The notes beneath the pieces were generated by a model that was given only the letters and a program-made list of their open reading frames with translations, ran no database searches and was not told the origin of the DNA. DNA of 51,883 nt from a virus, in IMG/VR virus record IMGVR_UViG_3300034198_009148, positions 1 through 51,883 of that record, one strand, 5' to 3'. Numbering within the stretch: position 1 is the stretch's first letter; every line of letters starts with the position of its first letter. Made by a program: the position numbers and the translations under genes. Positions 14,706 to 46,523 of this stretch are shown one piece after another.

Positions 14706-14717
14706 GTGTATGTATTT
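14706..14717 (+). promoter_or_regulatory. Repeated promoter-like motif, copy 1
   Basis: GTGTATGTATTT in the 68-bp divergent gap between portal and annealing-protein genes, 65 bp before the latter's ATG. The same core occurs in four other intergenic gaps in the same orientation, with TGG a few bases downstream in most copies. Candidate phage-specific promoter. Confidence 0.5.
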
Positions 14718-19801: not shown

Positions 19802-19868
19802 CTATACTATACTATACTATCTATTATACTATACTATACTAATATCTATACTATACTATACTATACTA
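19802..19868. repeat. TATAC pentamer array
   Basis: Three blocks of tandem TATAC units separated by short interruptions (TCTAT, AATAT). The array is almost pure A/T plus one C per unit. It could act as a DNA unwinding element, a cluster of TATACT -10-like hexamers, or a binding array for an unknown protein. Copy number may be inexact because such tracts assemble poorly. Confidence 0.8.
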
Positions 19869-20177: not shown

Positions 20178-20189
20178 TTGTATGTATTT
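20178..20189 (+). promoter_or_regulatory. Repeated promoter-like motif, copy 2
   Basis: TTGTATGTATTT followed by GTTTCTGG, nearly identical to the copy at 14706 over 20 positions. It lies 56 bp before the ATG of the 48-residue gene. Confidence 0.5.
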
Positions 20190-20412: not shown

Positions 20413-20424
20413 GTGTATGTATTA
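20413..20424 (+). promoter_or_regulatory. Repeated promoter-like motif, copy 3
   Basis: GTGTATGTATTA followed by GCTGACTGG, 56 bp before the next ATG and just after a terminator, where a fresh promoter is expected. Confidence 0.5.
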
Positions 20425-20468: not shown

Positions 20469-20723
20469 ATGGCACACACATATCCTTCAAGTCACTATTT
20501 CAGTGATTCGCTCGTATGTGACGTAATTGGTGTTGTCGACGCAGACAACCAAGTCACAGTATTCTTCCCACCATATATCAGCGATGTATATATGGCGCAA
20601 GCGTTGGTCCACTACGACGACCTTAATATAAAAGCACTCAGAACAACCCCAAAGTTCTGGGATACCTTGTCCAACTGTGTAGAAACCAATGGCTCTGCAT
20701 ACCACACGTATATCCATGCGTGA
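20469..20723 (+). CDS. Hypothetical small early protein
   Basis: An 84-residue protein preceded by AAAGG and the promoter-like motif at 20413. It is rich in Tyr, His and beta-branched residues (VCDVIGVVDADNQVTVFFPP) and has no membrane segment or known motif. It forms a single-gene unit between terminators. No function assigned. Confidence 0.65.
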   Translation: MAHTYPSSHYFSDSLVCDVIGVVDADNQVTVFFPPYISDVYMAQALVHYDDLNIKALRTTPKFWDTLSNCVETNGSAYHTYIHA

Positions 20724-20759: not shown

Positions 20760-20771
20760 GTGTATGTATTA
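20760..20771 (+). promoter_or_regulatory. Repeated promoter-like motif, copy 4
   Basis: GTGTATGTATTA followed by a T run and TGG, 74 bp before the ATG at 20834. Its first bases also form the 3' arm of an ACACGT/ACGTGT inverted repeat (from about 20732), so a terminator for the previous gene may overlap this promoter. Confidence 0.45.
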
Positions 20772-24212: not shown

Positions 24213-24224
24213 GTGTATGTATTA
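24213..24224 (+). promoter_or_regulatory. Repeated promoter-like motif, copy 5
   Basis: GTGTATGTATTA in the 70-bp divergent gap between the probable small terminase and the coiled-coil gene, 49 bp before the latter's ATG. Downstream TGG is missing in this copy. Confidence 0.5.
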
Positions 24225-24261: not shown

Positions 24262-24597
24262 ATGACAACGGAAGAAAAGGTTGAGGAACTTCGCCATAAC
24301 TTGATTACTTTTGTAGAAGAAGTGATGGCGCAGACAAAGCGAGATGGAGAAATGGTTGACAACATCATGTCTATACTCACCACACATGGTGAAGGCTTCA
24401 AGACAATGCAATCAATCTCTGACAATGTAGTAACTATGCTCCAAGAAGAAGAGCGTTTCCGCATCCGCCTTACAACACGTATGGACGCTATTGAAAGCCG
24501 TCTATCTGCTCTCGAAGCTCGATTTTCACAGGAGATGGAGTCATCAGACCAACAATCAGATAATCCTGATGATCCAAAACCAATCATCTATTTCTAA
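24262..24597 (+). CDS. Coiled-coil hypothetical protein
   Basis: A 111-residue protein. I start at 24262, preceded by TGAGGA; an upstream in-frame ATG at 24229 lies in the promoter region. The sequence is almost wholly helical and charged, with clear heptads (RMDAIESRLSALEARFSQEM, about residues 75-95), and ends in an acidic, Pro-rich tail. No membrane segment. It opens the second plus-strand operon. Probably an oligomeric adaptor; no function assigned. Confidence 0.7.
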   Translation: MTTEEKVEELRHNLITFVEEVMAQTKRDGEMVDNIMSILTTHGEGFKTMQSISDNVVTMLQEEERFRIRLTTRMDAIESRLSALEARFSQEMESSDQQSDNPDDPKPIIYF

Positions 24598-27313: not shown

Positions 27314-27690
27314 TCAGCCTTTGGCTTGCGACCACGCTTGACTTCAACAGAATCATTTGTCTCTTCGGAGATAGATGGTTCTGTTTTTTCTTCTACGACT
27401 GGCTTCGTTACAATCGTATGCTTGATAGGAGCGTGAGCAATTGGATCGTAATTCAATAGCCACTCAAGCTCAACCCATGCAAACTCATGGTAATCAGTTA
27501 CCACCAATGCACGTTGTACGCCTGACGATGCTGGATCAGTCAATGCGATAACCTCATATGGTTTGTTCAGTGAAAATGGGCCTGATGGATTACGAACAGA
27601 CTTGATCTTTTGCTCAAATGCTGATCGTGTTTGGGAAGGCTGGAGTTCAGGGTCTTTAAATGTGACCTTGATGTTATTCAGAGTCTGCAT
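27310..27690 (-). CDS. Small protein with AT-hook-like tail
   Basis: A 126-residue protein starting inside the last 17 bases of the giant gene, hence probably coupled to it. The N-terminal 80 residues are beta-rich and contain PYEVIALTDPASSGVQRALV. An acidic linker follows and the end is KRGRKPKAD, an AT-hook-like GRKP core that could bind the minor groove of AT-rich DNA. The giant protein has a similar basic end (RRRKPRRKKP). It may be a DNA-binding partner of the giant protein. No family recognised. Confidence 0.7.
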   Translation of the reverse strand: MQTLNNIKVTFKDPELQPSQTRSAFEQKIKSVRNPSGPFSLNKPYEVIALTDPASSGVQRALVVTDYHEFAWVELEWLLNYDPIAHAPIKHTIVTKPVVEEKTEPSISEETNDSVEVKRGRKPKAD

Positions 27691-30600
27691 TTGGTTTCTT
27701 TCTACGTGGTTTACGACGACGAGTTGATTTAGGTTTTTCTACTTCTTCACCTACTAAGTTACTAATAAAGTTCTTTGGTCCTTTGAGAACTTTGTTACCC
27801 TTTTCAATGGTGCTAATAACATCGCCAGGAGCTTGCAATGGGATACCAAGTGGTCCCAACAGATTAGCTACACGACGATCCCAGCGCATATCAGACGGCA
27901 TATTAGGTAGAATGCCTGCTTTGTGCATGGCATAGAGACCCAAAAGCGCTCCAGCGTCAAATGCAGGGGTAATACCAGCACCTCCAGGTACAATGTTGGC
28001 GAGATCTTTGAGATTATATTCGACAGCATTTGCCGTAGAAGCTTTGTTTAGATCGCGAGTAGCAAACAAGCTTACGCCTTCGACAAATGTTTTAACAGCA
28101 TTGCCTATAGGGTTCTCGCCACCAATGACCATTTCTACGCCTTGCTGTACCTCACGCTTAATCTCGTAAATGTCATCATCAGCCAAAGACTCTAACAATG
28201 AATTCAGCAAGAATCCAAGTCCTGTTACAGCTAGTGGTGTAAATGCCATTTTACCTGCTATGCTCAAACGTAAAGCTTGTGGACCATCTTCAGCAGACCA
28301 TGCTGTAAACGTACGCTGGGCAACCTGATCGCCAAGATCTAAGCCATACTTGCCCATCATTACATTAGCAAACTCTTGATCTTCACCTACAATTTTGTAC
28401 CATGAATCCCAAAACTTATACTCATTAATAGGATCGAGTGTAGTACGACGAGCAAACTTGCGGAAATACTGGCTAAAAAGATTGTAGGCACGACCAAATG
28501 GTGTTTGCAGGTGGTAAGCTTTTTCGTCGAACTTGCCTTGTAGTGTTTCAATGCCTTGTTCAACAAAACTTGAGATAGCAGCAGGGTTAGAACGAATATC
28601 TTTGCCTGCTTGCAAGCGCTCAAATGCTTTGGTTACCGTACTACCAGCACGCATAACACCCTTTTGTTCTGTTTCCCCAAGAGCATTAAATACACGCAAG
28701 CGTAGATTGTTAGAGCGAATAAGCGCACGGCTGCCAGTAACTAGCAATGGATCAAGGAATGAAAGTGTTTTGCCAGACAGCGCTAGTGCCTGATTAAGAC
28801 GATCAAGATTCATTGCTTGCAAATCATCAAGGCTTGCAATGTATTCCTCAATACCATCTTTATTAGTCTCGCTGAACGTAAGGTTCAATTGTCCTTGCCG
28901 GATTGTTGCCTTAACGTTCTTTGCATAACGCATATTCTTGTCAATAATTTGCTGGACCTGATCCATGTCGTTTGCAGTCAAATAACGACCAAGACCATCA
29001 ATGATCTTCTTTACACGTTTGCCTTCATTGAGCATTTCTACATACTGCAAGGTACTGCGATTTGTAGACTGTGTATTAGCTGGAGTAATAAGCTCAGCTG
29101 CTAAGCCAGCACCCTTTTGCAGACGCTGCTTGGCAGTTGATGCAGCAGGGGTACCTTCACGCATATAGCCGTCCATTTCCTTGCTACTCAAAAGCTTCAG
29201 TGTGCCTGTGACCTGGCTAGCAAAGTTGCGTCCCATCATCTTAATAGCTGCACCCCAAGTATTTGGCAGTGCCTCGCTATCAAACAACTGTGGAAATATC
29301 TGTGCTGCACGAAGAGCAAACCCCAAATAGTTGCCATACTTATTACGTACGTACTTACTTGTGCCTTTGTAAACAGCCCAACCTACACCAGCAGCAGCAC
29401 CACCTACGCCAATAACAGGAGCAGCAAGCACACTAGCAAGGATTGTCGCTGTCTCCTTACCCAAGCCATAACGCCACTGTGAAGCACCGCTACTGATAAT
29501 CTGTGCCGTCTTATCAAGAGCAGCTACCAATGAGTTTGGAATGTTCTCACGACCAATCTTACTATAGAAGTTGATGCTTGCTTTTTGATCATTGACCTTA
29601 TAGGTTTCCCGAATCTTTTCTCCAGTAAAACTTTGCAACGCTTCTGCTCTGACGCTTGATAGGAACTCACCAAGTTCACGTTCTTCACCAAAAATCTTAT
29701 AGATCTGCTTCTGTCGTGCATCGTTAGCTTTATTCGCCAGCCAACCATTGACAGAACCCTTTTGCACCTGTGTTATAGTTTCCAAATCAATGTAACTCAA
29801 GCTACCGTTCTCTTGATTGTAGACAACCATAACGTCTTTTGGTGCTGGCTTTTGGTTAAGGCCAAGCTTACGTTCTGATAGTTCCAGGTTAGATAGGTCG
29901 AGCTTGTGCTGCTCAGGTGTAATTGTACCTTGACGCAACATCGTATCAAGCAATTGCTTTTGCTTATCGAAACGAGCTTGTGCTTCTTTGACGTTCTTAG
30001 TAGCTACAATTTCAGGATTCAAACGAACGACACCAGCCAAACGACCTGTCAACGTCTTGATGTTGTTGTTGGAGTCAGCTGTATATGTGATAGCTACTGG
30101 CGTTGTTACTGGCAATCCCATTTCGTCCGATGATAGCCATGCACGACCTTCATTAGACACTTCCTTCATCTTAGCTCGCCAGCCACGTGTACTATGTACG
30201 TCAACGTTCTCTTTGTAGATCGTACCATCAGTGCTAAACAGTGACAACAAGTTGTTTTCTGCAACTGTGCTGTTCAATGTAGACTTACCCAATGCTTTGC
30301 GAATGTTGCGCTCAGTATTGTATGAGTTTGTAAACAGCGAGTTAATGTTGAGGAAGGTTGATTGCAATACGTCCTGGTTGCGTTGGAACAACAGGTCTTC
30401 ATTGTACGTATCAGGTGTACCAAAGACATACTTCATAATCTCGTAGTCACGAGTATCGTACATAGAAGGACGATGTTCATCACTACCTAACAGCTCTCGC
30501 TTAAAGAAGCTGCTTACCTTCGACAATTGTTTGTTCTTGCGGTCGGCTGAGTCACGTCGTGATTGCAAATAGGACATTACAAGCTTACCACGATCAAGTG

Positions 30601-33600
30601 GGTCAGCACTACCCATGGTAGGATACTGCTCAGCCAAACGCAATACATCAAAGTATTGGCTGTATGAACGATACAAATCGTCTAGCTCTTGCTTTGCCTC
30701 AGCACGTTGTTCGGCTGGAGCATTCTTGATCTTGTCAATAAACGCATCACGTTCGGTCAAAGATTCAGTCACAACTTGGCTGAACGTATCGTAGTTAACA
30801 AACTGCATTGCATTGATATTGTCTACAAGGCCAGACTTCAATCGTGCATCAGCTTCAATGCGTAGTTCATCAGCGATAGTCTTTGCTTGTTGCCACAAAG
30901 GAGCAAACTCAGTTGTTTCAATATCAGGTTTGGCTGACATAGGCGCAATGCCTGCTGCCAACTCTTCTTCGCTCAGTGGTACAACCTCATTAGGAGTATT
31001 CTCTTCGTACAGATTACGTACATATTCTTCCAATGAAGCTGCAATGTTACGTTGATATGTAGCATATCGTTGATTTTGAGCCTTTGCCGTTACTGCAATC
31101 TTAAGTGCATTGACTAGGTTCTGACGTGTGTACTGCTGTGGAATAAGTTCTGGTTGCTGTACACCGTTGAGAATCTCTTCTGCAATGCTATTAAGCTCAT
31201 TGTCTGGGATGTATCCATTGGAATCAGCATTGTAGATCTTATTGTTGATTCTAATACTGACCGATGGGTCATTCACACCATTGAAGACACTCGTTGCTTG
31301 CACGACAGCAGTTGATACGCGGCTTATTTCACGTACTGCTTCAAGGATACCAGGGTCTCCAATACGCTCAAAACGATCTTTTAGATTGTCACGCAAACCG
31401 CTAAGGTCAGCAGCCATCTTGTCCTTGATAGCGTTGATAGAGCGCTTGCGATAGCCATGACGTACATATGTCTCGCTTTCCATAGAGGCATATTTAGGCA
31501 TCATTTGCTGGTTGTATTGTGAGCCTAAAGTATTCTTTGTTACTGTCTCACTTACATTGCCTGCATCGTCTACGGTTACAGCGATTGTCTCAGACACTGG
31601 TGTAAACAATGAATGATTGCGCTTGTCTTTGGCGTAATGCTTAATGAAATCACCAGCTTCTTGTGAGGCAAGGATTTGGAAACGATCCCACCAAGTGCGT
31701 GGCACTAGACCCATAACCTTAGCTTGTTTGTCTGTGATCTTCATCGCATCTGTCAAAGCTTGAGTCAAATAAAAGCTCTTGCTTGCACGGATGATATTGT
31801 TACCACGAGTATCACCATTCTCCTCGACTTGTGTCATACTACCGTACTTACGGTAAAGACCCTCTTCGATAGTCCGTAACTGCTGTGGGTCGATAGCCGA
31901 CATCACAAAATCATACAACTCGTTAGCGTTAGCACTTTCCCCAAACTCAGAACGCAGGTACTCGCTAATTGTGCTATTGATTTCTTCTGTTTCCTTCCAT
32001 GACATATTTGCCAGTGGCTTACCAACAAACTTGTTTAGGCGATTGAGACGCCCAGCACGTTGGTTCTGTAACTTGTAACCTTCGATCTTAGCTTCTTCAC
32101 CGTTGTACAATCCAAAGCGTACACCAGGAATGTTATCGATGGAGTCCGAATCCTGCATGTTGTGCAATGCTTTAACATCAGAATAGTAAACAGCATCTTG
32201 ATACACGGACTGCAAAATATCTTCACCACTGCCAATGGTTACGTCACCACCTACTTCCTTTGCACCTTCATAGACGTCACGGAGTCCAGCATAGTAATGC
32301 TTATCCAATGACTGCATAGGATCATAGCCTTCAATCTCTTTGCCTGTAGGTTCTTTGCGTTTGACATCTTCAAACACAGAAACCTTTTGGTTCATAGCAG
32401 CAAGTAGAATATCAGGGCTTGATGGCTGCATAAACGCAGCATACTTACCCAACATCTTAGTGCGTTGCCGTTCATTCATATTGCGATCAATACGCAAAGC
32501 AGCACCGCTATCAAGAATGCTAGGATCTACCTTGTTTGGCATTGTGCGCTTAGTAGCTTCGCCCCAGTTCAGCAATACAACACGCTTGCCTTCTAGTGTC
32601 TGCTGGGCAATAGCGTCCTTGATTTCTTTGGTTACGCCAGCATCAGACCTACCACCACGGTTAACCATAATAACATTAGGTTCAGGCGTATAACCTTGCG
32701 ACCAACCATCTTGGAAGTTTTGGAAGTCTGCATGGGTTAACAAGAATACTGAGTTTGGATTTTCTTTGCCAAGCTTTGTAAGCTCATCGCGCATATTCCG
32801 CAATGGCACTTCGCGCTTGTCCATAACGGCTGGCATGATCAAGTGTGGAGGGAATAGCTGGTCTGCTGTCAGCCCAGTTTCTTCCATCAACTGCTTGATA
32901 CCTTCGGAGTAATCGCCCTTGGTGTAGATCTCTTCGATGCCATATTCAGCGTGTGGCGTTTGCAAAACAACAGACTCATCTGTGATATTCCATCGTACAC
33001 CATCAGCACCTGGTATCTCAATAGTAGTCTTTGACTGACCATAGGCACGCTGTAACATCTCAGTCAATACAAGCTGATTTGTTACGTGGTTGGGATTATC
33101 AGGTGTGCTAGTAAAAATAGCATTAGAGCCTGTCGCAATTGGATCAGCTGACAGGTTAGATACAAAATCAAAACGTGCATCAACTGCTGACAATCCTTTA
33201 AAGCTTGCAGCTATCTTATTGAGTTGGGCTAACGTTTCATCTTTAACATCAGTATTTGACCTAAGTGTATGCAACACTGAACGGATATTGTTGAATGTGT
33301 TTCTAGCTAGGTTAGTGTACGTAGCTAACGATGTTGGGATTGCTTGTAGTACTTTACCTTGTGTACGCTTAAACTTTGTTTTTTCTGGTAAGCGATCAGA
33401 TATTACCTGACCAGTTGTATCAATCAGTTCAGGTGTTATACCTTCAGGTAATTGTTCATACTGTTTGATAGTTTCATTAATGCCAGCACCATACACGGTA
33501 GTATCGTTGTACTTAGCTGCTGCATACTCGTTTTGATTGATGTACCTAGGCAAAGCACCAACCACACTGTCTGCTGATTTTTGCGGTACCATACTTTTGT

Positions 33601-36600
33601 AAGCACGGTAAAATTCTTCCATCAACAACGGAACAACTGTACCTGTTTCTTTATACCGAGCAACAGCATCCACAAAGTCTTGGTAGTTAGCTGACTCTGG
33701 ACTCATGTTAATCTGTATGTCCATTACACGGCTACCAAAAAACACATCGCGTGGATGATATGGCAGTCCAGCCCATGTATCATACTGTGCTTGTTTGGTA
33801 TATGCATCAGCGACGCGCCATTGGTCAGGCGATCCACCCAATGTAAAACGCATACGACTAGTTTCTACAACAGGATTAGTGCGACTAGCATTCATGTCTT
33901 CGATATAACCCCAAGCTTCGTACCATGTATTAAGCTGAGCAATACCGTGATCAATCTTATCCTGGCCTATACTGTTAGCTTCTTGTGTCTTATTAAAATT
34001 GTTGGTTGTCTGTTGACGTTGATCAACTGGGATTTTAGGGAATGGCATTCCCAGCAAATTTTTACCAAGCTCTTGCTTTTTGGCTGGATCACCCTTATGC
34101 GAACCTTGCTTAGCCAGTTCATCCCAAAGATCAAGATACTTGCCACCCCAATCTGGGTTTTCAAACAGGATACCAAAATCATCACCATCAAAGTCACGAC
34201 CAATTTCTTGAGTAAGAAACTCGTGGTTAACCATAATGCCAGTATTTTTACGGCTATCAGCACCTACAAGAACACGTGCTGAATAGCTATCCAATCCATC
34301 TGGTGGGTTAAGCTTTGTTACAACCTTAGATCCCATTAGTAAGTACGGTATGTCTTTGCCTTGTGCTCGTTGCTTTTGTACGTGACGATTGTATGCGTCA
34401 ATATCGTTAACCGAAAGGATTACACCTTGGTCATATGCCTTGAGCTTGCCATCAGGTATATGCTTTGCAACTACTTCATTGGCAACAAAGTCATCATGCT
34501 CACGTACCTTGTTATTGATAAACTCAAACGCGTCTTCATCAGACAGTTCAAGTTTAGCTGCTTCTTCTTCAGCTGCAATACGTGCCCACATACGAGAAAT
34601 GTCTGTGCCATCTTTAACGTGGTTATCGGCTGGTACATATAAGTTCAAACGGAACAGCTTGCCAAGACTTTTAGCTTTGCGTGATGCGTCGAACTCATTT
34701 GTGATGACGCGCTGACGTAGTGTGTTTTCTCCATGGATAACATTGCCATAGATAGCGTCAAGCAGATGAAGATTGCGTACAGCAACAATGTTGTCATCGA
34801 GCAAGCTATTCTCAATACCACGTACAACAGCACGCTTGATTTCAGGCGTAGCAAATAGATCGCTACCTGGCTCAGACTCTTGGGCTTTAGCTAAAAGACT
34901 CTTTACATACTTGTACAAATCTTTATTACGGATTGTACCATTGTCATGGTTGTAAACCTTTTTGACTTCATTAATAGCATCTGCAATCTCTTTGTCAGTG
35001 GAGCCTACCATTTCAAGTCGGCTCATAACAACATCTTGTGCTAACGGTGCAGTGGCAAGCAGAAGTTTATCAGCTTTGATCGTACGCCCAAATTTCTCAG
35101 CTATACGTGAATGCAAACCACGGACTGTTTTACGCAATACACCACCTTGATCACCATAGACATATGGACTACGGTCAAACGAAACGCTAACGCCACGGAA
35201 GCTATTCTCATCAGGGGCTGAAGCTACGTGGTTAAAGCCAATAGCGTTATCGCCAACAAGATCATACTCACGGATAGCACCTGGTACATCAACATTGCCA
35301 TTAGCATGTAGGGCAATAGATTCTTCTGGGGTTAGTGCCTTGTATTGACCGTTTTCTTCCGCACCTAACAACGTACCATTGTGGTCATAAACATACCGTG
35401 TAGGCATTGATGCCCCTTCACGTAGTACATCCTGACGTTGGAAGTTTTTACCCTTGCTCTTGATGGCAGACTGCATAGCGACCATGCTAATGCCACGGTC
35501 ACGCAGATTCTGGAAAAATGTATCAACAAGTGGGTTGCCTGTATCGTATTGCTCAGACAATGCCGACTTCCAGATCCAGTCACCACCGTATCCAAACTTT
35601 AGACCACCAGTAGTGTTAGCTGATTTGTTATACGCTTCAGCCAAGAAATCATGTGTAGCCTTATTGATAAGCAGCGTACCACCATCAAAATGATCCGATG
35701 GCTTACGAAGCTCATTAAGCTTTGGTTGCGTTTCTTCACCACGGCGTTGTTCCCATTGCCAATTACGTTCGCCAACACCAGCAGTTGATGTTAACCGCTT
35801 GCGTGGTACGGGCTTCCAAACGCCTGGACCTACTTCTTCATAACCATTATTGGTTACATAATCAGCAATGTCACGTTCGCCTACGTTGTATTCACGCTTT
35901 CTATTAGGTGCATCATCGGTGATGATTGTAGCACCAGCTTGTACCGCCTTGCTAATTTCATCAAAGTTTGGTCGTATGCGGTTGGCGCGGTTACCTTCAG
36001 CAGATACAAACACAACGTCGCTAGCTTCATACACACCTGTATTAGCTAGTTCACCGAAGTCTTTGGCATACTGCTCGGTATTACTACGAGGCGATCCACG
36101 ACCAATGTACTTGGTTGCCATGTCCGCTTTAGCTTGATCTTTAGGAAGATAACGTTGTTCTCCCATGCGATCAGGTACGCCAGTTAGCTTTACATTTGCT
36201 GGTGCTTTTGGCGCTACCTCCGCTTCATCAACCTCTTGCTTAAACAAATCTTGTGCGCTCAAAGCAGCCCAAATCTCTGGGTTAGCTTCTGCCCAAGCGT
36301 CAGTAAGAATAAACTGCTTAAGCTTGATAGAACCATCATCGCCTAGAATAATACCCTTCTGTTTCCATGTAGCTCGTACAGTTTCACGATTTTCAGGTGC
36401 CACTTTGTTTAGATCCAATGGATCAATAAGCTTACCACGAGACTGCAGAATAGTCTCAAGGGTATCGACATCACGATAATGGTTGTAAGACGCCTGAATA
36501 GCGACGTTGTAATACTTGTTATTATTCTTGATTGGCTTATCTGATCCTGGCTTAGTGGCGATCGTATTTTGATTGCCATAATCTGTTAGCTTATGATAGA

Positions 36601-39600
36601 ACTCAGTGAGTGCAGACACAAGTGGTTCACGACCGTCACCATCAAGCTTATACCGCACCTGTGGCTTAACACCAGCTTCGTTAGCTTCATAGTATTTAGC
36701 AAGCTTGGTAATGACTTCATTAGCTTGCGTAGCCAACGTAGGCGCATCTGACATAGCTGCTTGGAACCAGTTAGCAATACCAATTGGATTACCTTGCTTT
36801 GTAGCATCATAAATGTCATTAGACAATCCTTTGAGAATACTTGTCTTAGGATCAGCAAGATCAAAGTATTCTCCCTTGTTTGCCATGTCTACAAGCTTCC
36901 ACAAATCAAAGGCTGACAATACACGAGGTACTGCTGCATTGCCACCTGGCTTACCCCATGTCTGCTCGCTGTCAAGATAGTCAACGAGGTTGATTGTTTC
37001 TACCTTTTGGGTAAGAAGCTTGAGTGCGTTAGGGTGGAGCTTGCCTGTAAACAAACTGCTCAAGTCAAGCCACATATTGCCTTCGGCTGTGCCTGGCAAA
37101 AAGAACCATCCTGGCTTTACATCATTGAGAAAGACATCAGATACGTTGGCGCTATTCTTGATAAAGCCATGATTTTCCAACATCTTACTGTCAGTAACCA
37201 CACCAACTTTAACATTAGTTAGTTGGTCAATCAATACATCAATACCCTTGTCTTTATACACACGGTAAGGGTTGCCAGATGATGATGTCTTGAGTCCTTC
37301 TGCAATGTTCTTAAGACGGCGAAACATTGGTATTGGATTCTGAATAGCCGTTATAAGCTTACGACCTGTGGCTGCACTTACGCCATCCTTAGACTCGATA
37401 GCATTTAGATATACCTTGCCATTAACATCCTTGCTCAATTCCAAAGGAGTTACTGGCAGCATGTTATGGTTGTTGAAGATATAAGCACGTACAGCTTCGT
37501 TGGCTTTTTCCCGGAACGAGTTGATCATTGCTTCCCGTTCGGTGTTATCAGCCAGCACTTCACTGTCTGCTTCAACAGGACCAAACAGGTCGTCAATGCG
37601 CTTGTCAATACCCTTGTTTATCGTGTCCATGATAAACTCAGGCTTTTCAAAGTTGGCGTTAATCCACTTTTGCAAACGCTTGACACTCTTCATGCCAAGT
37701 ACTGTAGACAAATCACGCATTGAGATCGTATCACGACGCGCAATCTCTGAAGCTGGCAGATCTGTTTCGAAATCTACACGCTCTTTGGTCAATGCCTTCA
37801 ATCTGCTTACAATGCCTGTATCAGCTACAAGCTTCTTACTTTCTTGCAACAAAATCTCAGACTTACGTAGCGGTGTAAGATTATCCCAGTCAGCATACTT
37901 TTCAGTAATGCCATCAGTAATGAACTTATACCCTACTTCATCTTCAATACCATAACGCCTCAGATTATCGATAAACCGTATGCTATTAGTACGTGCTTGA
38001 TTCTTATCGACCGATTCAGAAGCTAGGTTAATTGCTTTTGCTAAGTCCTTGAATAGACCAAGGTTACTGTCAGGGTCAACCAATGTTTCATGATCATCCA
38101 GAATAAAATCAATGCCCAAACCATTTGTCAACTGATCAAATAGCTCAGCGTTTTGTGGCTGCTGATCGCCCATAGCTTGAGCGAACGTATCATTGATTGC
38201 ACCAAATGGTTGTGGGTCAGCAGTCTTTACCACCTCCATGCGTGGGAATGCTCGCAATACATCTTGCACAGATTCAAATACGTCTGTGTTTGTCATTGCA
38301 TCGCGGTTAAATGCTCCTTTGATCGTATCGATAGTGCGACGTCCAAAGCCTTGCGACTCTTGCATAATAACATCAGCAACACCATTGACATTATCAACGA
38401 TACCAGCAATAAACTCTTCAGGACTTTGCATCATGTACAAAGCCTTTTCCCAGTTTTCTTCCTTGCTCATCCACTTTTGGAACAATGAGCTCTCTTCAAT
38501 CTTCTGCTTGAGCAATAGAATCTGATCGCGGAATGCTGGGTCTTTGCGTAGTGTCTCTACAGTAGCTGCATGGATACCTTCGTGGAGCAACGCATTGCGT
38601 TCCCCTTCCGTACCCCGCAAACTTTCGCTAATGTAAATTGTTCCTGTGCCAGTATCATAAAATGTGTTTGGCCCTGGATGGTAAATGACATCTGTATCTG
38701 GAGCGTTACGATGGATAAGGTTAAGAGCTTCGCGCTGAATATCGGAGAACCCATCAGCGAATGCTTCTTGACTTGTCATTTCCGACAGCTTGACTGGCGT
38801 AGCTTCTCCTGCTCGTACATCCAAAACAGCTCGGTCAGCATCAAAACGTTCACGCAAAAGCTCTTCATAGCCCTTGGTGTATTGTTCGTTTAGCTCTTCA
38901 TCTGTTGGTGGGTCGATGTTCTCTATCGTTTCTCCAGTCTCACGCGCAACCTGGGCATCCTCCGGAGTAGCCATAGTTGCCTCAGAATCCGTCGCAATGT
39001 CTTCAACCACCTTAGCATTGGCTTCGTCAGCAATAGGGCTTGTATTGCCCTGCATATCACGCGCAAAGCGTTTAGCATCTGCAATGGCTTCTTCTGTTTC
39101 ACGCGCACGAATAAAGCTTTGGATGTCACGTGCATCAAGTGGACGGTTAAAACCACGGATGGTCTTAGCCAAATGACCACTAGCACCTAGACCCATTACT
39201 GCATCAAGTACAAACGCTACGCCATCATATTCCTGACCTGTAAGATTCGCTACAATAGCACCCTGTACTGGGTTACCAAATGTGTTCCCCATGGCATAGG
39301 CTAGTTCTTTCTGTACACGAGCGGCATCATAGGACTTGGTAAAGATTTCCATGCCTTTTTGTTCCCCATACTTTGTTATGAGGTTATCCATATACGCGGC
39401 ACGTGTACTGCTATTTTCTAGCACTCCTTGTACAGACTTCCACTTTGTTACGAGTGGCATGAATACACGCTGCGTAATCAGATTACCTACAACTGGGAAC
39501 AATGCGCCACTAATAGCTGATTGCTCAAGCTCTTCAGGGTTAGCATTAGGGAACGTTTCAAGCAGGTGAGCCATACTCATCGTGGCTGCCATTTCTGTAG

Positions 39601-41680
39601 CTGCTTGTACGTTAGGAATAACATTAGGTCCAAGGCCATGCAACGTCTGACCCAACTGTTGCATATACTTGCTACCCAAAATTGTTTGTCCTACCTTGCT
39701 GGTACGAAGAAACGAACTGGCTTTCATTACTGTGCCAGACGAAATCTTAAATGGTCCAGCATACATAGAACCAATGAGCTGGGTGACTGCTGGTATTACT
39801 TGTTCGATAAATGTATCGGTACCTACAGTTGTTTGTGCTTTGGCTGCTGCGTCAAGGTTCGGTTTGCTCTTAGCTCGTTCATTATCAGCAATAGCCTGTG
39901 GCAAAAGCTGACGAAGTTCACTTACATTAGGCACCGATACTGGGTCATTTGTTGCATAGGCTGGATCAATTGATTCTCGTCCAGTACCAAGATCAACAAT
40001 AAACCGCCATAACATGTCTTCTTGTTCTAGCTGTGAATAGTCTGATTGTGGGCCTTTAATACCACTTATCATACGTGCAGTGCGAGCTTCATCTGCATCA
40101 GCCAAACGTTCAGGCAACTTACTGATCCAACCTAACGCACCTCGGAATAAGCCCGTTACGCCACCAGCAGTTGTGCGAGCTGCTACAGCGCCTGTCTCGC
40201 TGGAAAACAACTCCTTTGGCAATTTCTTACCATAGAAACGTTTAGCTCCGTTTAGCTGTTCAAGCTGCTGGTAACGCTGCTTAAACGCATCATAGACACG
40301 TTTAACATTTGGGCTTTTTACTCGCGACAATACGTAGTCGTCTACTGCTCCAGACCACGATGTTAATGGACGCCATGAGTCAACGTCCACTGACTGTGCA
40401 ATAACATCAGCAATACCATCATCTACCGACTGTGACTTCATGTACTTAAGCAGGTCAAAGGCCAAACCTTGTGCAGCATCAAGACCTACCTTGTCATCAC
40501 CTGTCAAATACTTGTCAGTAAGAAGAGCTGTTGTAAACTTGCTGAGAAACTCATTGTCAAGTTGACGGTATGTTTGGGAAATATCCCCAATTTCATAGTC
40601 ACCTGTAAATGTTTCCTCACCATCTTTATCATCCATATACGCTATTGGCTTAATAGGCAATTGCGTAAGAGGCGACAATTCACTAACAAACTCAGCTGAC
40701 TTAGCTTCTTGTTCTGCAACTTTATTAAGTGCTGCTGTATCCCCCAGCATCGTGCTAGGAACCATCACAGAGCTTACCTGCATACTACCTTCAGGCATAC
40801 CGTCACTGCCAAGCTTTACGCCCTTGTACTGAAATGGTACAGCTACATACTCAGGACGCTTATCCGCCATCTGATCGTCACGCTGCTCTAGCTTAAACTC
40901 AGGGGTCCGCTTAAGATCAGCACGTGTAAACGCATACTTAGGTTCTTCAGGCTTGCGCTGTTCGAGACTTGCTGGCATTCCACCTGTTTCTGGACGACCA
41001 GTATTTTGTGGTACACCTTGAGGTCCCAGTACTCGTTTGATAGGGGTAGGGGTCAGTTGGGTCTTAACCCAATCACTATTTATTTCGTTGGCTTTGGTTT
41101 CTTGTTGAGCTTTTTGTGTACGTGCCTTTGTTACGTTATCCTTAACACCGTAATTCTTACGCATTAAATCAAGAGCATCTTCTGCGCCACGACGTTCATT
41201 AGCCATTTTAGCTAGATCATATAGATCAGCCTCATCCATATTAGGCAGCTTAAGACCTTGCTCTTTAATAACTTCGGCTACAGTCTTTTCGTCGTATCCA
41301 GCTAGATTCTTGCTACGTGCATAAGCGTTCAGTTTTTCGGTAGCGCCATTAAGAGTAAGCTCTTGCATACGCATATCAACGATACCATTGCGGGCCATTG
41401 ATGCACGGATGCCAGCATCCTTATCTGGAATTGTCGCACTTTTAGCAGCAGCTGAATATCGTTTCCAATCTTCGTGCTGTTGCTTTTTAGCTGGATCATT
41501 TTCAAAGGGTGATTCTTTGAATTGTACGGTTGGCTTTTCCATTGGCACGTTAACTGTGCCTGGTATTTGATCAAACGGAGAAGAGGAAGGCGCTGGTGTT
41601 GCGCTTCCCCCTGTTGTTGTACCTGGAATATTGCCAAACGTAAAATCGTTTTGAGGCTGCTTGTTACGGTTTTTAGCCAT
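27674..41680 (-). CDS. Giant polyvalent virion protein with two-barrel RNA polymerase and zincin motifs
   Basis: A single intact frame of 4,668 residues, 27% of the genome. Start ATG overlaps the upstream TAA (TAATG). N terminus (about 1-350) is Pro/Gln-rich and disordered-looking. Hydrophobic or amphipathic stretches lie at about 640-860. HEGIH at 1033-1037 with EEFIAGI at 1088 fits a zinc peptidase. Residues about 1859-1958 form a Rossmann-like domain (IGRGSPRSNT start; YNVGERDIADY; GVWKP). DGGTLLI (Asp1999), Lys2038 in GGDWIWKSAL and Lys2074 in SAIKSKG match the first catalytic barrel of QDE-1/YonO-type RNA polymerases; KLNPP (Lys2456) and DFDGD (2496-2500) match the second. A Rossmann-like stretch lies near 2977-3085. 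Membrane-like segments lie at 4076-4107 and 4470-4497; the tail is basic. It follows two ejection-type genes, so packaging and ejection are likely. Polymerase identity is inferred from motifs and spacing. Confidence 0.8.
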   Translation of the reverse strand: MAKNRNKQPQNDFTFGNIPGTTTGGSATPAPSSSPFDQIPGTVNVPMEKPTVQFKESPFENDPAKKQQHEDWKRYSAAAKSATIPDKDAGIRASMARNGIVDMRMQELTLNGATEKLNAYARSKNLAGYDEKTVAEVIKEQGLKLPNMDEADLYDLAKMANERRGAEDALDLMRKNYGVKDNVTKARTQKAQQETKANEINSDWVKTQLTPTPIKRVLGPQGVPQNTGRPETGGMPASLEQRKPEEPKYAFTRADLKRTPEFKLEQRDDQMADKRPEYVAVPFQYKGVKLGSDGMPEGSMQVSSVMVPSTMLGDTAALNKVAEQEAKSAEFVSELSPLTQLPIKPIAYMDDKDGEETFTGDYEIGDISQTYRQLDNEFLSKFTTALLTDKYLTGDDKVGLDAAQGLAFDLLKYMKSQSVDDGIADVIAQSVDVDSWRPLTSWSGAVDDYVLSRVKSPNVKRVYDAFKQRYQQLEQLNGAKRFYGKKLPKELFSSETGAVAARTTAGGVTGLFRGALGWISKLPERLADADEARTARMISGIKGPQSDYSQLEQEDMLWRFIVDLGTGRESIDPAYATNDPVSVPNVSELRQLLPQAIADNERAKSKPNLDAAAKAQTTVGTDTFIEQVIPAVTQLIGSMYAGPFKISSGTVMKASSFLRTSKVGQTILGSKYMQQLGQTLHGLGPNVIPNVQAATEMAATMSMAHLLETFPNANPEELEQSAISGALFPVVGNLITQRVFMPLVTKWKSVQGVLENSSTRAAYMDNLITKYGEQKGMEIFTKSYDAARVQKELAYAMGNTFGNPVQGAIVANLTGQEYDGVAFVLDAVMGLGASGHLAKTIRGFNRPLDARDIQSFIRARETEEAIADAKRFARDMQGNTSPIADEANAKVVEDIATDSEATMATPEDAQVARETGETIENIDPPTDEELNEQYTKGYEELLRERFDADRAVLDVRAGEATPVKLSEMTSQEAFADGFSDIQREALNLIHRNAPDTDVIYHPGPNTFYDTGTGTIYISESLRGTEGERNALLHEGIHAATVETLRKDPAFRDQILLLKQKIEESSLFQKWMSKEENWEKALYMMQSPEEFIAGIVDNVNGVADVIMQESQGFGRRTIDTIKGAFNRDAMTNTDVFESVQDVLRAFPRMEVVKTADPQPFGAINDTFAQAMGDQQPQNAELFDQLTNGLGIDFILDDHETLVDPDSNLGLFKDLAKAINLASESVDKNQARTNSIRFIDNLRRYGIEDEVGYKFITDGITEKYADWDNLTPLRKSEILLQESKKLVADTGIVSRLKALTKERVDFETDLPASEIARRDTISMRDLSTVLGMKSVKRLQKWINANFEKPEFIMDTINKGIDKRIDDLFGPVEADSEVLADNTEREAMINSFREKANEAVRAYIFNNHNMLPVTPLELSKDVNGKVYLNAIESKDGVSAATGRKLITAIQNPIPMFRRLKNIAEGLKTSSSGNPYRVYKDKGIDVLIDQLTNVKVGVVTDSKMLENHGFIKNSANVSDVFLNDVKPGWFFLPGTAEGNMWLDLSSLFTGKLHPNALKLLTQKVETINLVDYLDSEQTWGKPGGNAAVPRVLSAFDLWKLVDMANKGEYFDLADPKTSILKGLSNDIYDATKQGNPIGIANWFQAAMSDAPTLATQANEVITKLAKYYEANEAGVKPQVRYKLDGDGREPLVSALTEFYHKLTDYGNQNTIATKPGSDKPIKNNNKYYNVAIQASYNHYRDVDTLETILQSRGKLIDPLDLNKVAPENRETVRATWKQKGIILGDDGSIKLKQFILTDAWAEANPEIWAALSAQDLFKQEVDEAEVAPKAPANVKLTGVPDRMGEQRYLPKDQAKADMATKYIGRGSPRSNTEQYAKDFGELANTGVYEASDVVFVSAEGNRANRIRPNFDEISKAVQAGATIITDDAPNRKREYNVGERDIADYVTNNGYEEVGPGVWKPVPRKRLTSTAGVGERNWQWEQRRGEETQPKLNELRKPSDHFDGGTLLINKATHDFLAEAYNKSANTTGGLKFGYGGDWIWKSALSEQYDTGNPLVDTFFQNLRDRGISMVAMQSAIKSKGKNFQRQDVLREGASMPTRYVYDHNGTLLGAEENGQYKALTPEESIALHANGNVDVPGAIREYDLVGDNAIGFNHVASAPDENSFRGVSVSFDRSPYVYGDQGGVLRKTVRGLHSRIAEKFGRTIKADKLLLATAPLAQDVVMSRLEMVGSTDKEIADAINEVKKVYNHDNGTIRNKDLYKYVKSLLAKAQESEPGSDLFATPEIKRAVVRGIENSLLDDNIVAVRNLHLLDAIYGNVIHGENTLRQRVITNEFDASRKAKSLGKLFRLNLYVPADNHVKDGTDISRMWARIAAEEEAAKLELSDEDAFEFINNKVREHDDFVANEVVAKHIPDGKLKAYDQGVILSVNDIDAYNRHVQKQRAQGKDIPYLLMGSKVVTKLNPPDGLDSYSARVLVGADSRKNTGIMVNHEFLTQEIGRDFDGDDFGILFENPDWGGKYLDLWDELAKQGSHKGDPAKKQELGKNLLGMPFPKIPVDQRQQTTNNFNKTQEANSIGQDKIDHGIAQLNTWYEAWGYIEDMNASRTNPVVETSRMRFTLGGSPDQWRVADAYTKQAQYDTWAGLPYHPRDVFFGSRVMDIQINMSPESANYQDFVDAVARYKETGTVVPLLMEEFYRAYKSMVPQKSADSVVGALPRYINQNEYAAAKYNDTTVYGAGINETIKQYEQLPEGITPELIDTTGQVISDRLPEKTKFKRTQGKVLQAIPTSLATYTNLARNTFNNIRSVLHTLRSNTDVKDETLAQLNKIAASFKGLSAVDARFDFVSNLSADPIATGSNAIFTSTPDNPNHVTNQLVLTEMLQRAYGQSKTTIEIPGADGVRWNITDESVVLQTPHAEYGIEEIYTKGDYSEGIKQLMEETGLTADQLFPPHLIMPAVMDKREVPLRNMRDELTKLGKENPNSVFLLTHADFQNFQDGWSQGYTPEPNVIMVNRGGRSDAGVTKEIKDAIAQQTLEGKRVVLLNWGEATKRTMPNKVDPSILDSGAALRIDRNMNERQRTKMLGKYAAFMQPSSPDILLAAMNQKVSVFEDVKRKEPTGKEIEGYDPMQSLDKHYYAGLRDVYEGAKEVGGDVTIGSGEDILQSVYQDAVYYSDVKALHNMQDSDSIDNIPGVRFGLYNGEEAKIEGYKLQNQRAGRLNRLNKFVGKPLANMSWKETEEINSTISEYLRSEFGESANANELYDFVMSAIDPQQLRTIEEGLYRKYGSMTQVEENGDTRGNNIIRASKSFYLTQALTDAMKITDKQAKVMGLVPRTWWDRFQILASQEAGDFIKHYAKDKRNHSLFTPVSETIAVTVDDAGNVSETVTKNTLGSQYNQQMMPKYASMESETYVRHGYRKRSINAIKDKMAADLSGLRDNLKDRFERIGDPGILEAVREISRVSTAVVQATSVFNGVNDPSVSIRINNKIYNADSNGYIPDNELNSIAEEILNGVQQPELIPQQYTRQNLVNALKIAVTAKAQNQRYATYQRNIAASLEEYVRNLYEENTPNEVVPLSEEELAAGIAPMSAKPDIETTEFAPLWQQAKTIADELRIEADARLKSGLVDNINAMQFVNYDTFSQVVTESLTERDAFIDKIKNAPAEQRAEAKQELDDLYRSYSQYFDVLRLAEQYPTMGSADPLDRGKLVMSYLQSRRDSADRKNKQLSKVSSFFKRELLGSDEHRPSMYDTRDYEIMKYVFGTPDTYNEDLLFQRNQDVLQSTFLNINSLFTNSYNTERNIRKALGKSTLNSTVAENNLLSLFSTDGTIYKENVDVHSTRGWRAKMKEVSNEGRAWLSSDEMGLPVTTPVAITYTADSNNNIKTLTGRLAGVVRLNPEIVATKNVKEAQARFDKQKQLLDTMLRQGTITPEQHKLDLSNLELSERKLGLNQKPAPKDVMVVYNQENGSLSYIDLETITQVQKGSVNGWLANKANDARQKQIYKIFGEERELGEFLSSVRAEALQSFTGEKIRETYKVNDQKASINFYSKIGRENIPNSLVAALDKTAQIISSGASQWRYGLGKETATILASVLAAPVIGVGGAAAGVGWAVYKGTSKYVRNKYGNYLGFALRAAQIFPQLFDSEALPNTWGAAIKMMGRNFASQVTGTLKLLSSKEMDGYMREGTPAASTAKQRLQKGAGLAAELITPANTQSTNRSTLQYVEMLNEGKRVKKIIDGLGRYLTANDMDQVQQIIDKNMRYAKNVKATIRQGQLNLTFSETNKDGIEEYIASLDDLQAMNLDRLNQALALSGKTLSFLDPLLVTGSRALIRSNNLRLRVFNALGETEQKGVMRAGSTVTKAFERLQAGKDIRSNPAAISSFVEQGIETLQGKFDEKAYHLQTPFGRAYNLFSQYFRKFARRTTLDPINEYKFWDSWYKIVGEDQEFANVMMGKYGLDLGDQVAQRTFTAWSAEDGPQALRLSIAGKMAFTPLAVTGLGFLLNSLLESLADDDIYEIKREVQQGVEMVIGGENPIGNAVKTFVEGVSLFATRDLNKASTANAVEYNLKDLANIVPGGAGITPAFDAGALLGLYAMHKAGILPNMPSDMRWDRRVANLLGPLGIPLQAPGDVISTIEKGNKVLKGPKNFISNLVGEEVEKPKSTRRRKPRRKKPNADSE

Positions 41681-43428
41681 TACTTATTACCACCAGTGAT
41701 GTTATGCCCAGTAAATCGTTGCAGTTCCGCCAGCTCCATACCTGTTGGTGCTTCAACCTTCCAGCCGTGAGTCTGAATTACATTACCCTTGTCATCTTTA
41801 ATGACTGATTTTTCTAGTCCAGCTTGATACGTAAGAGTAATAGCACCCGTTGGTGTTTGTACTTGTACCATTTGTGGTTGCCCACCTGATTGCTGTAGAA
41901 TCTTAACGTTGTAGTTACCACGTCCAAGTTTGCTGGCTTGATCGGCTTTCAGTTTCAATACATTGACAAGCCCATTACCTTCAGTAAACCGCAAATCGCC
42001 TGTTGATCGGAATGCCAAATTTGACACAGGGCCAGTCAGCTTAACACCACGCTCATCATAACTAATTTGTGTTGTCGCACCAGCTTCTGTTGATGGCAAA
42101 TTAGCTTGGATGATACTTGCAGGTGATGGAGATGGTGCATTAAGAGTTGCGCCACCAACACGGATGTCTGTCTTCATTTCCTCGGATTGCATTACACCCA
42201 GCTTATTCTTTGATCCTTCAACCTTGGTGCGACGATCTGATTGCTTTTCAAGCGTAGTAGCAACACCAGACTTTGTAGCTGCTTCTTCCCAACGCTTCAA
42301 ATCAGCAACACGCTGTGTCAGCAATCCACTAAATGTTTCTTGCATAGGTGCGCCAGTATTATACCCACGGGTCATCATGATTTGATTACCGTAGTTTTCA
42401 AGTGCAGCCAATCCAGCTAACTTAGGTATTGAACGTTTGATTTCGTCATACTGCGCTGACTGTACCATCGTTGTCTTTTCGCTAACAGTCGGCATCTGTG
42501 TTTCAAAACCACCACGCTCCATTTCAACATCGATTTTGCCTGCACCTTTCCACTTTTGTCCTGCCCCTTCTGTCATACTGATTTTTGTATCAGGAGCTGG
42601 TGCAGGTGTTTCTATTTTGGTTGGGGTAGCTACAGGCTTAGCTGATCTAATTTTGTTTGCCAACATAGCACCAAGACTTGTAGGTGTTGGTGGTAACTCA
42701 CTTGCTTTTGAACCAATGCTTGCTGCCCCTGTACCCGATGCGTTACTACTATGCAATACCATTGGGGTTGGTGCATTTGGATCAATAGTAGGCATAGGCA
42801 ACGTACGTGTTGCTACTCCTTGCCCAGCTGGAAAAGGTAAAAGTCGTTGAGCTGCTCGCTGTTCTAGTGCATTGCCATTAGGATTAAGAACAGCACCATC
42901 GCCATATTTTTGTGATGGCAACTGTGGCTGTGGCATAGTGCGTGGTGTAGCTGCTTTTGCACCAATGTTTCCTGCAAGTGCTGATGCTACAGCAAAGTTA
43001 CCACGCTGCAATGCGTCCATGTCTTCAGGCATAGCTTCAGCAGCTGCTCCTTGCGCTTGTGCAACTTGGGCAGCAAACTGTTCAGCTTGTCCTGGAACCA
43101 TTTCTTCTCGGACTTGTGTAAAGCCACCGCGACTTTTATCATCACGTGGATCAAGACCACCAACAGCTCGATAAAAAGCTTCTCGTGCAGCGCTCTGGTC
43201 CATAGGACTATCTTCGCCAGCAAACTGAAAACCTTCATCGGTTACTGTAATCTCTGTTTTAGGCAACAATCCAGCAGCCATCTTAGCTTCAAGATCCTGC
43301 TTTTGCGCTACCTTCATATTTTGTTTTGCACGACGGTAAGCTACGTTCTCAACTAGGTTGAGAAACAAAGCTTCCATATTGTCAGAAGCTGACGGTGGTG
43401 CTGGCTGGGTAACAAATTGCTGTGGCAT
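41680..43428 (-). CDS. Probable internal virion (ejection) protein
   Basis: A 582-residue protein coupled by TAATG overlaps to both neighbours. It is Ala/Gln/Pro-rich with long low-complexity stretches (AAQVAQAQGAAAEAMPEDMD) and a more ordered beta-rich C-terminal 200 residues (YNVKILQQSGGQPQMVQVQ). No signal peptide. Large Ala/Gln-rich proteins between a short glycine-rich protein and a giant protein recall the ejection-protein trios of T7 and P22, which leave the head before DNA and form a conduit. The call is contextual. Confidence 0.65.
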   Translation of the reverse strand: MPQQFVTQPAPPSASDNMEALFLNLVENVAYRRAKQNMKVAQKQDLEAKMAAGLLPKTEITVTDEGFQFAGEDSPMDQSAAREAFYRAVGGLDPRDDKSRGGFTQVREEMVPGQAEQFAAQVAQAQGAAAEAMPEDMDALQRGNFAVASALAGNIGAKAATPRTMPQPQLPSQKYGDGAVLNPNGNALEQRAAQRLLPFPAGQGVATRTLPMPTIDPNAPTPMVLHSSNASGTGAASIGSKASELPPTPTSLGAMLANKIRSAKPVATPTKIETPAPAPDTKISMTEGAGQKWKGAGKIDVEMERGGFETQMPTVSEKTTMVQSAQYDEIKRSIPKLAGLAALENYGNQIMMTRGYNTGAPMQETFSGLLTQRVADLKRWEEAATKSGVATTLEKQSDRRTKVEGSKNKLGVMQSEEMKTDIRVGGATLNAPSPSPASIIQANLPSTEAGATTQISYDERGVKLTGPVSNLAFRSTGDLRFTEGNGLVNVLKLKADQASKLGRGNYNVKILQQSGGQPQMVQVQTPTGAITLTYQAGLEKSVIKDDKGNVIQTHGWKVEAPTGMELAELQRFTGHNITGGNK

Positions 43429-44153
43429 TATCGGTTCCCAAGAAAGTTAATAACTGGAACGCCTGACTGACCACCAAACAAATTCATAAATGGGCTACGC
43501 TTTTGCTTAGCTACTTGTTCGATAAAAGCCTTTTGTTGTATCTCTGCTGCTTGTTGCGGAGTGTTTTCAGCACTTTGTAGTGGTACGCTTCTTGGAGCTG
43601 CTGTGTTAGGTGCTGCTTGGTTCATAAGGCTATAGATGTTAGTGGCTGTGTTAACACCCCCAAGAATGCCTTGCAAGATGTTGCCAAAAGGATTTGCTTT
43701 TTGCTCGTTGACATACGAGACTTGATTAGACAAATCCGCAATAGAGCGTCCTAGGCTTTCTGATTGCTGGATCTTTTGTTGTTGTGCTTGCTGTGCTTGC
43801 CCATAGGTATCAGCCATAGCTTGCGAGTATGGTGCAGATGCAGCCATAGCTGCTTGACTAGCCTTAATACCTTGACCTGTTGCGTTAGCAAAGTCACCAG
43901 ATCCACCAGCAACGGCGTTGAGAGCTGCCCCTTGAGCAGCCCCCATACCCCGTGAAATCTGTTGTTGTTGCGCCCGTGCTGTTGCCATTGGGCTAAGTGC
44001 TTGGTTAGCTTCGTCTGCACGAAGAAGACGTCCATACGCATCTGTGTTGTATTGTTCTTCAATGCGTTGACGTTGTGTTTTACCTTGACCCATGAATTGT
44101 TGCAGAATACCAAGTCCTGCACCAACACCAGCCATAATCAATGGAACAGCCAT
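43428..44153 (-). CDS. Probable internal virion protein (T7 gp14 / P22 gp7-like)
   Basis: A 241-residue protein with a hydrophobic, Gly-rich N terminus (PLIMAGVGAGLGILQQFMG) and a long Ala/Gln/Ser-rich helical middle (AQQQQISRGMGAAQGAALNA). This composition is typical of the smallest ejection protein of short-tailed phages, which inserts into the outer membrane. It is coupled to the next gene by TAATG, and together with it and the giant protein it would form the ejected set. Confidence 0.7.
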   Translation of the reverse strand: MAVPLIMAGVGAGLGILQQFMGQGKTQRQRIEEQYNTDAYGRLLRADEANQALSPMATARAQQQQISRGMGAAQGAALNAVAGGSGDFANATGQGIKASQAAMAASAPYSQAMADTYGQAQQAQQQKIQQSESLGRSIADLSNQVSYVNEQKANPFGNILQGILGGVNTATNIYSLMNQAAPNTAAPRSVPLQSAENTPQQAAEIQQKAFIEQVAKQKRSPFMNLFGGQSGVPVINFLGNR

Positions 44154-44416: not shown

Positions 44417-44716
44417 TCACTTTTTAGGGAACTTGAACGTTGTAATGGATTGGTACAACATTTGCTCAAGGGCTGCCACAAGGTTCTCTTGTACCCCCCT
44501 ACCCATTGTGTAGAAAATGGCGTGAGCCCATTCATGGAGGAAGGCTTGTAGCTGAAGCTTTTCGCTTTGGGGTACATCGTTAATATGGGTAGCCACCCTA
44601 ATAACGCAGCTGTTATAGTTGCAGTCCCCGTGCATATCCTTAAGCTTTACACGCTTGACACGCCAGGTATTACCACCTAGCTTAAAGGAGCTTGGTATCG
44701 TCGTAAGGTCTTTCAC
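44417..44716 (-). CDS. Small HExxH metallopeptidase-like protein
   Basis: A 99-residue protein with LHEWAHAIFYTMG, giving His61, Glu62 and His65 of a zincin motif, on a helix as expected. The C-terminal helix (QENLVAALEQMLYQ) could supply the third ligand (Glu). Two cysteines (DCNYNSC) lie in the N-terminal half. Small stand-alone zincins in phages have no assigned substrate here; roles in virion processing or in host protein cleavage are possible. Its start overlaps the preceding stop by four bases. Confidence 0.7.
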   Translation of the reverse strand: MKDLTTIPSSFKLGGNTWRVKRVKLKDMHGDCNYNSCVIRVATHINDVPQSEKLQLQAFLHEWAHAIFYTMGRGVQENLVAALEQMLYQSITTFKFPKK

Positions 44717-46268: not shown

Positions 46269-46523
46269 TCACGCTGGGATGTAGCCAAGCTTAGCAAGGG
46301 CGAGGTTGATGATAAACGTATCATCAGTACCCCAGTCAGCCAGTTCATTTTCGGTAAACTTTACTTGCTCAATTGATAGTTGCGATCCTTCTTGATCAAG
46401 CAAAATAATACAAGCATTAGCGTACTCATCGCCTAGGCCAAATTGAATATGCACATAATTACATACTGCTGTTACTGCTGGCTTGCTAGTAGCTACTGGT
46501 TTAATTGGTGTTTGGAGTTGCAT
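46269..46523 (-). CDS. Hypothetical small protein
   Basis: An 84-residue protein with a Pro/Lys-rich N terminus and a mixed alpha/beta remainder (YANACIILLDQEGSQLSIEQ). No membrane segment. It lies between a fibre gene and the lysis-type genes. No family recognised. Confidence 0.6.
   Translation of the reverse strand: MQLQTPIKPVATSKPAVTAVCNYVHIQFGLGDEYANACIILLDQEGSQLSIEQVKFTENELADWGTDDTFIINLALAKLGYIPA

Follow-up and report, generated by a model that had tools for sequence, protein, structure and literature searches.

The question raised by this locus is what a protein of 4668 residues, encoded directly behind two much smaller ones, does for a phage with a genome of about 52 kb. The window, i.e. 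the whole stretch of 51,883 nucleotides analysed here (IMG/VR record IMGVR_UViG_3300034198_009148), had been the subject of a sequence-only reading, which took the three proteins for a set stored in the head and crossing the envelope with the DNA, comparable in logic to the N4 virion polymerase. The open reading frames of 241, 582 and 4668 residues are exact in their coordinates, all three lying head to tail on the minus strand, and both junctions within the set read TAATG, i.e. stop and start overlap by one base:

43428..44153, minus strand: putative first ejection protein (gp14/gp52-like position), 241 residues, no cysteine, hydrophobic N-terminus
41680..43428, minus strand: putative second ejection protein (gp15/gp51-like position), 582 residues, no cysteine
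27674..41680, minus strand: candidate giant ejection protein with a two-barrel RNA polymerase domain, 4668 residues, no cysteine

The answer proposed here, which we consider probable, is that the three genes form a DNA-ejection set and that the giant is an ejected two-barrel RNA polymerase reading the early genes from the motif TGTATGTATT.

A direct repeat of 87 bases at its ends shows the window to be a circular assembly of about 51.8 kb. The genes around the ejection set encode a P22-type portal, an SU10-type capsid protein, the large terminase, DnaB, Erf and YqaJ; the portal and capsid types, together with weak matches to the SU10 adaptor, indicate a short-tailed phage. Neither a DNA polymerase nor a primase was seen in the window by family scans that omitted some open reading frames, e.g. 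the one of 755 residues at 49330-51597. Scans of genome contigs found no relative, HMM scans of the giant against Pfam, PHROGs and NCBIfam returned nothing usable, and in tblastn neither the portal nor the giant matched a crAss-like sequence of the phage collection, a result that is compatible with remote homology. The reading frame of the giant is under purifying selection (dN/dS 0.117 over 3595 codons, in comparison with the relative L002). Upstream of the ejection genes, at 44417-44716, there is a small SprT-like protein with the motif HEWAH (Pfam E 3.6e-5), and a tandem CTATA repeat occupies 19802-19868 in the 1.2 kb that separate the gene at 20834 from the DnaB gene, a stretch that is possibly an origin or a regulatory region.

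The ejection-protein composition previously ascribed to the two upstream proteins holds in a sharper form, none of the three proteins containing any cysteine: 0 of 5491 residues, with 34.5 expected (P ~9e-16) from a reference of 64/10182 in 37 other open reading frames of the window, hand-picked and in part overlapping. The codons TGT and TGC are absent from the frame of the giant gene, whereas its other two frames contain 169 and 310 of them. The yardsticks for this depletion were hand-picked proteins—not whole proteomes—of four phages, the ejected versus the other proteins having 0/4294 versus 62/7246 cysteines in N4, 1/2261 versus 66/5601 in T7, 4/5977 versus 40/7526 in phi14:2 (with the role of g067 and g068 assumed) and, for gp96 of P23-45, 0/5002 versus 9/3633. 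The trio of internal virion proteins from a Klebsiella phage (2332 residues) is likewise free of cysteine. A few cysteines are tolerated in the sets of phi14:2 and of the relative G016 described below. Three papers describe the N4-type virion RNA polymerases as free of cysteine and tie this to entry or to passage through tail and periplasm (PMC3715699, PMC3915230, PMC2784036).

Two domains were delineated in the N-terminal half of the giant:

38201..38803, minus strand (residues 960-1160): HExxH metallopeptidase-like domain with HEGIH at residue 1033, common to gp16-type internal virion proteins
35711..36247, minus strand (residues 1812-1990): inserted Rossmann-like domain, its fold guessed by eye, absent from L002

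From about residue 986 to residue 1160 the giant is related to the third internal virion protein of Klebsiella phage KpV17Sklif (130 columns, pairwise E 8e-10), and against the phage collection the domain matched 22 records (best E 1e-4), with an annotation as internal virion, core or ejectosome protein for 16 of them and as hypothetical for the remaining six. A similar HExxH region, in register with that of the giant, is present in phi14:2 gp65 (E 0.15), and N4 gp50 contains HELVH at residue 2228. The window thus shows the arrangement of the podovirus gp14-gp15-gp16 trio, namely three adjacent cysteine-depleted proteins, the third one with the HExxH domain. Concerning the inserted domain, it is 39-41% identical to stand-alone proteins of the Vibrio phages Kuja, SUMAE and VPALA; one cysteine is present in the stand-alone copy, none in the inserted copy. 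The giant of L002 does without this domain and has ~125 extra residues elsewhere instead.

The close relative, L002/G001, has the same set, with no cysteine in the 4587 residues seen. More distant ones came from a search with the portal, which gave 14 loci, one of them being the G001 record again; seven records were read. A sequence search for the giant in the 13 portal relatives found it in none (0/13), G013 included, where a giant was later shown by gene order, cysteine count and pairwise alignment, so that these negatives mean little. The G013 genome (55,774 bases, portal 38% identical) has a set of 244, 497 and 4895 residues, with 0 cysteines in 5636 residues versus 80/9200 elsewhere and with both HEGEH and DFDKD; its first protein matches the 241-residue protein of the window (E 7e-10). 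In G016 (57,165 bases with a 348-base end overlap, portal 40% identical) the set comprises five genes (298, 133, 556, 205 and 5262 residues), with 1 cysteine in 6454 residues versus 124/11365 elsewhere, and the giant carries HEMTH and DYDGD. Judged by sequence, these two very distant relatives retain the whole plan of a cysteine-poor cassette, a giant, HExxH and DxDxD. The loci G006, G008, G010, G011 and G012 are fragments, and the absence of a giant there is uninformative. The locus G014 (L118, L119; 5243-12464, portal 24%) exhibits a trio of conventional size (194, 541 and 1363 residues) with no cysteine and without the motif, possibly an ancestor-like state without polymerase. It should be pointed out that many viral contigs (L126-L167) encode proteins of 2000-4000 residues sharing a region with the G013 giant, the longest plus-strand reading frame being cysteine-free in 17 of the 42 loci; they are possibly a wider class of ejected giants.

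The assignment of a polymerase is based on the following segments:

34091..34438, minus strand (residues 2415-2530): DPBB-A of a two-barrel RNA polymerase, by profile; 116/116 residues identical in L002
34181..34195, minus strand (residues 2496-2500): DFDGD, proposed metal-binding catalytic triad, a sequence motif
35426..35698, minus strand (residues 1995-2085): tentative second barrel DPBB-B, DGG plus two lysine segments, by eye only

The motif in the giant is the sole D.DGD among the window's reading frames of at least 90 residues, i.e. no second polymerase motif was found there. Since an earlier shuffle of the flanks (0/1000) destroyed the letters GxDFDGDD by which the loci had been selected, it was unfair, and it was rejected, an HMM of unrelated DFDGDD proteins having almost passed it, too (1/1000). 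With GxDFDGDD fixed and only the flanks shuffled (2000 decoys per profile), the score of the giant was reached by 2/2000 decoys for the polymerase profile of 14 known or likely DPBB-A segments and by 0/2000 for a balanced DPBB-A profile, as opposed to 306/2000 for LamG and 171/2000 for mixed controls; smaller profiles were weaker (44/2000 for P23-45 only, 291/2000 for YonO-like only and 43/2000 without P23-45). A profile of four sequences—window, L002, G013 and G016—matched L061 (E 5e-5, probability 68%), P23-45 gp64 (E 8e-5, 61%) and P23-45 gp96 (E 1.5e-4, 51%, 94 residues). The catalytic aspartates were in register in all seven profile targets, four of which score at most 6.4%, and 21 control comparisons (reversed, N-terminal and C-terminal) stayed at or below 1.0%, two of them touching a motif, at no more than 0.2%. 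The virion polymerase phi14:2 gp66 was missed in one profile comparison and weak (0.7%) with the four-sequence profile, and an unrelated DFDGDD control, CTL_L055, gave E 2e-4 over 24 residues only. These comparisons place the DFDGD region with the two-barrel RNA polymerases represented by P23-45 gp64 and gp96. Between the giants of the window and G013 the DPBB-A region is the best match (blastp E 5e-4 among four sequences; phmmer 2.7e-5), and the giants of G016 and G013 match along their length (E 2e-12 in that region); the direct match between the giants of G016 and the window is weak (E 0.1) and lies outside it. Structure prediction gave no usable fold either for residues 1985-2900 (pLDDT 29.9) or for residues 2415-2530 (pLDDT 40.2), probably because of too few diverse relatives, and the fold is therefore derived from sequence profiles that span ~70-95 residues and reach modest probabilities, 51-68% in the three best cases.

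That DFDGD is a chance calcium-binding or lectin-like (LamG) motif, of the kind that a protein of this size might contain, has some appeal, inspection by eye having shown unrelated proteins at many of the 70 loci that contain these letters (a 3888-residue reading frame with DFDGDD in L049 was judged unrelated). The count of DFDGD expected by chance in the giant is, however, 0.004, and the LamG and mixed profiles fall far behind the polymerase profiles in the fixed-motif shuffles; we regard this reading as the least probable of all. Somewhat less improbable, although still unlikely, is an ejected giant without polymerase activity, either lost or never possessed, in which the DFDGD region would be a remnant or belong to a different metal-binding barrel, with transcription of the early genes left to the host RNA polymerase, as in T7. 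The low pLDDT values, the second barrel recognised by eye and the modest profile probabilities speak for it; against it stand the complete identity of the 116-residue region in L002, its rank as the best-matching region between the giants of the window and G013, and the retention of the aspartate triad as DFDGD (window, L002), DFDKD (G013) and DYDGD (G016).

The giant might also be a structural virion protein, of the tape-measure type or another, that is retained in the particle instead of being delivered, P23-45 gp96 being a cysteine-free giant with DFDGD that serves as tail tape measure. The head and tail genes of the window are nevertheless podovirus-like (the SU10-type capsid, the P22-type portal and the weak SU10 adaptor matches), and both the gene position and the HExxH domain agree with internal virion proteins, making this reading quite improbable; it differs in part only, tape measures being thought to be delivered as well. 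The preferred reading—an ejected set—is supported by the cysteine depletion seen against four phages, the HExxH domain, the N4-like gene order and the cassette in distant relatives. Likewise, the idea of N4 logic with a different polymerase fold is borne out by the lack of a match to the N4 virion polymerase family and by the match of the DxDGD region to two-barrel polymerases.

The sequence-only reading had also pointed to membrane segments and a basic tail in the giant:

39167..39505, minus strand (residues 726-838): weakly hydrophobic segments, peaks at residues 726-744 and 820-838
29369..29455, minus strand (residues 4076-4104): hydrophobic maximum of the giant, aligned with that of G013
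28181..28261, minus strand (residues 4474-4500): hydrophobic segment, by hydropathy
27677..27733, minus strand: basic C-terminal tail, rich in lysine and arginine

The tail was found as described. Concerning the membrane segments, the peaks are present and the order of the C-terminal ones is conserved in one relative, but hydropathy does not exceed chance: the best 29-residue mean, 1.40, compares with an average of 1.36 in shuffled sequences and was attained by 180/500 of them, and for the N-terminus of the 241-residue protein 56/500 shuffles were as high. The hydrophobic stretches were rejected as stand-alone evidence accordingly, being not above the chance given by composition. The three strongest C-terminal segments keep their order and spacing between the window (4079/4472/4560) and G013 (4303/4724/4809), and the segment 4035-4100 is the second-best match between the two giants; in G016 the pattern is weaker, with one segment at 5138.

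Five early genes are preceded by a recurrent motif, TGTATGTATT, present in five exact copies, all on the early (plus) strand:

14707..14716, plus strand: candidate early promoter TGTATGTATT, before the gene at 14771
20179..20188, plus strand: candidate early promoter TGTATGTATT, before the reading frame at 20234
20414..20423, plus strand: candidate early promoter TGTATGTATT, before the reading frame at 20469
20761..20770, plus strand: candidate early promoter TGTATGTATT, before the gene at 20834
24214..24223, plus strand: candidate early promoter TGTATGTATT, before the reading frame at 24262

All five lie 47-72 nt upstream of an ATG, and Markov sequences contain 0.275 copies on average (maximum 3 in 200), the motif having been picked post hoc, before that test. 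In both close relatives (L089, L090) it reads GTATGTA(C/A/T)T and retains its spacing of 53-54 nt to the small genes downstream, two of these genes being others than in the window. The looser form GTATGTANT matches with no recognised gene downstream at 10357, 17481 and 23774 (plus) and at 46466 and 26862 (minus), the three plus-strand copies, looser by one position, lying inside genes. Several copies of TGTATGTATT have a terminator-like hairpin on one side and a small 5' stem-loop on the other. Between 14000 and 28000 sigma-70-like promoters number 23 versus 27.5 in shuffles, and none coincides with TGTATGTATT. We infer that TGTATGTATT is a candidate promoter for the polymerase of the giant.

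With regard to known systems, the closest gene order is that of Schitoviridae, N4 gp52-gp51-gp50 and DEV gp73-gp72-gp71 being likewise three adjacent genes, small, medium and giant (150-644-3500 residues in N4 versus 241-582-4668 in the window), with the cysteine-free giant last in the N4 cassette as in the window. According to two papers, two ejection proteins and a giant polymerase are ejected together there and form a channel (PMC12633501, PMC10925440). The N4 polymerase is, however, a T7-like right hand: N4 gp50 matches phrog_2206 (T7-like single-subunit polymerase, PHROG 2206), whereas the window giant, with its two-barrel motif, does not, and the HExxH motif is C-terminal of the polymerase in N4 (residue 2228) but N-terminal in the window giant. 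P23-45 gp96 resembles the latter as a cysteine-free giant with DFDGD and, like gp64, a profile match at the catalytic barrel; P23-45 is long-tailed and has a tape measure whose N-terminal part is the polymerase, as well as a second, non-virion polymerase, while the window phage is podovirus-like by its capsid and adaptor matches and none was found in it. For P23-45 a coupling of ejection and transcription has been proposed, and fusions of virion RNA polymerases to large proteins have been noted in crAss-like and N4-related phages (PMC10770324). The crAss-like phi14:2 has a two-barrel single-chain virion polymerase, gp66 (PMC7886860), along with the similar HExxH domain of gp65, but in separate genes and a 100 kb genome, in contrast to one chain and 52-57 kb in the window lineage. 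The trio gp14-gp15-gp16 of T7 and its Klebsiella phage homologues share gene order and cysteine depletion, and the latter's third protein also the HExxH domain, although a T7-type third protein has ~1240-1320 residues and no polymerase. An ejected giant with a polymerase appears to be known otherwise only from phages with a different polymerase or a different build; no prior description of an ejected giant combined with a two-barrel polymerase was found in the literature searched, subscription journals being mostly outside that search. The system is best described as N4 ejection logic with a polymerase of the crAss/P23-45 class.

By analogy with N4, DEV and crAss001 (for the last, PMC10172136), the particle would hold the set, which would pass the tail at least partly unfolded and build the channel. 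The proteins of 241 and 582 residues would provide this channel with its outer-membrane and its periplasmic part. The giant, unfolded on its way out of the particle and through the envelope, would become anchored in the inner membrane or close to it via its C-terminal hydrophobic segments; in the cytoplasm it would regain its fold, that of a two-barrel RNA polymerase made of a single chain, and transcribe the incoming early genes from TGTATGTATT promoters. More tentatively, at somewhat less than even chances, one polypeptide may serve both as the inner-membrane end of the ejection channel and as the two-barrel polymerase, preceding the genome, reading the early genes from its own one-piece promoter and perhaps pulling the DNA in. 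The polymerase would then have been incorporated into the third ejection protein of a podovirus, in an event separate from that in N4, and the lineage extends to a giant of 5262 residues.

The near-complete absence of cysteine is suggested as a simple genome-level marker of ejected proteins. If the proposal is true, two unrelated polymerase folds—the right hand of N4 and the two-barrel one of the window—would have been built independently into one ejection machine, the coupling of genome entry to first transcription would be a general solution rather than an oddity of N4, and this lineage would offer a compact model of 52-57 kb with a testable candidate promoter.
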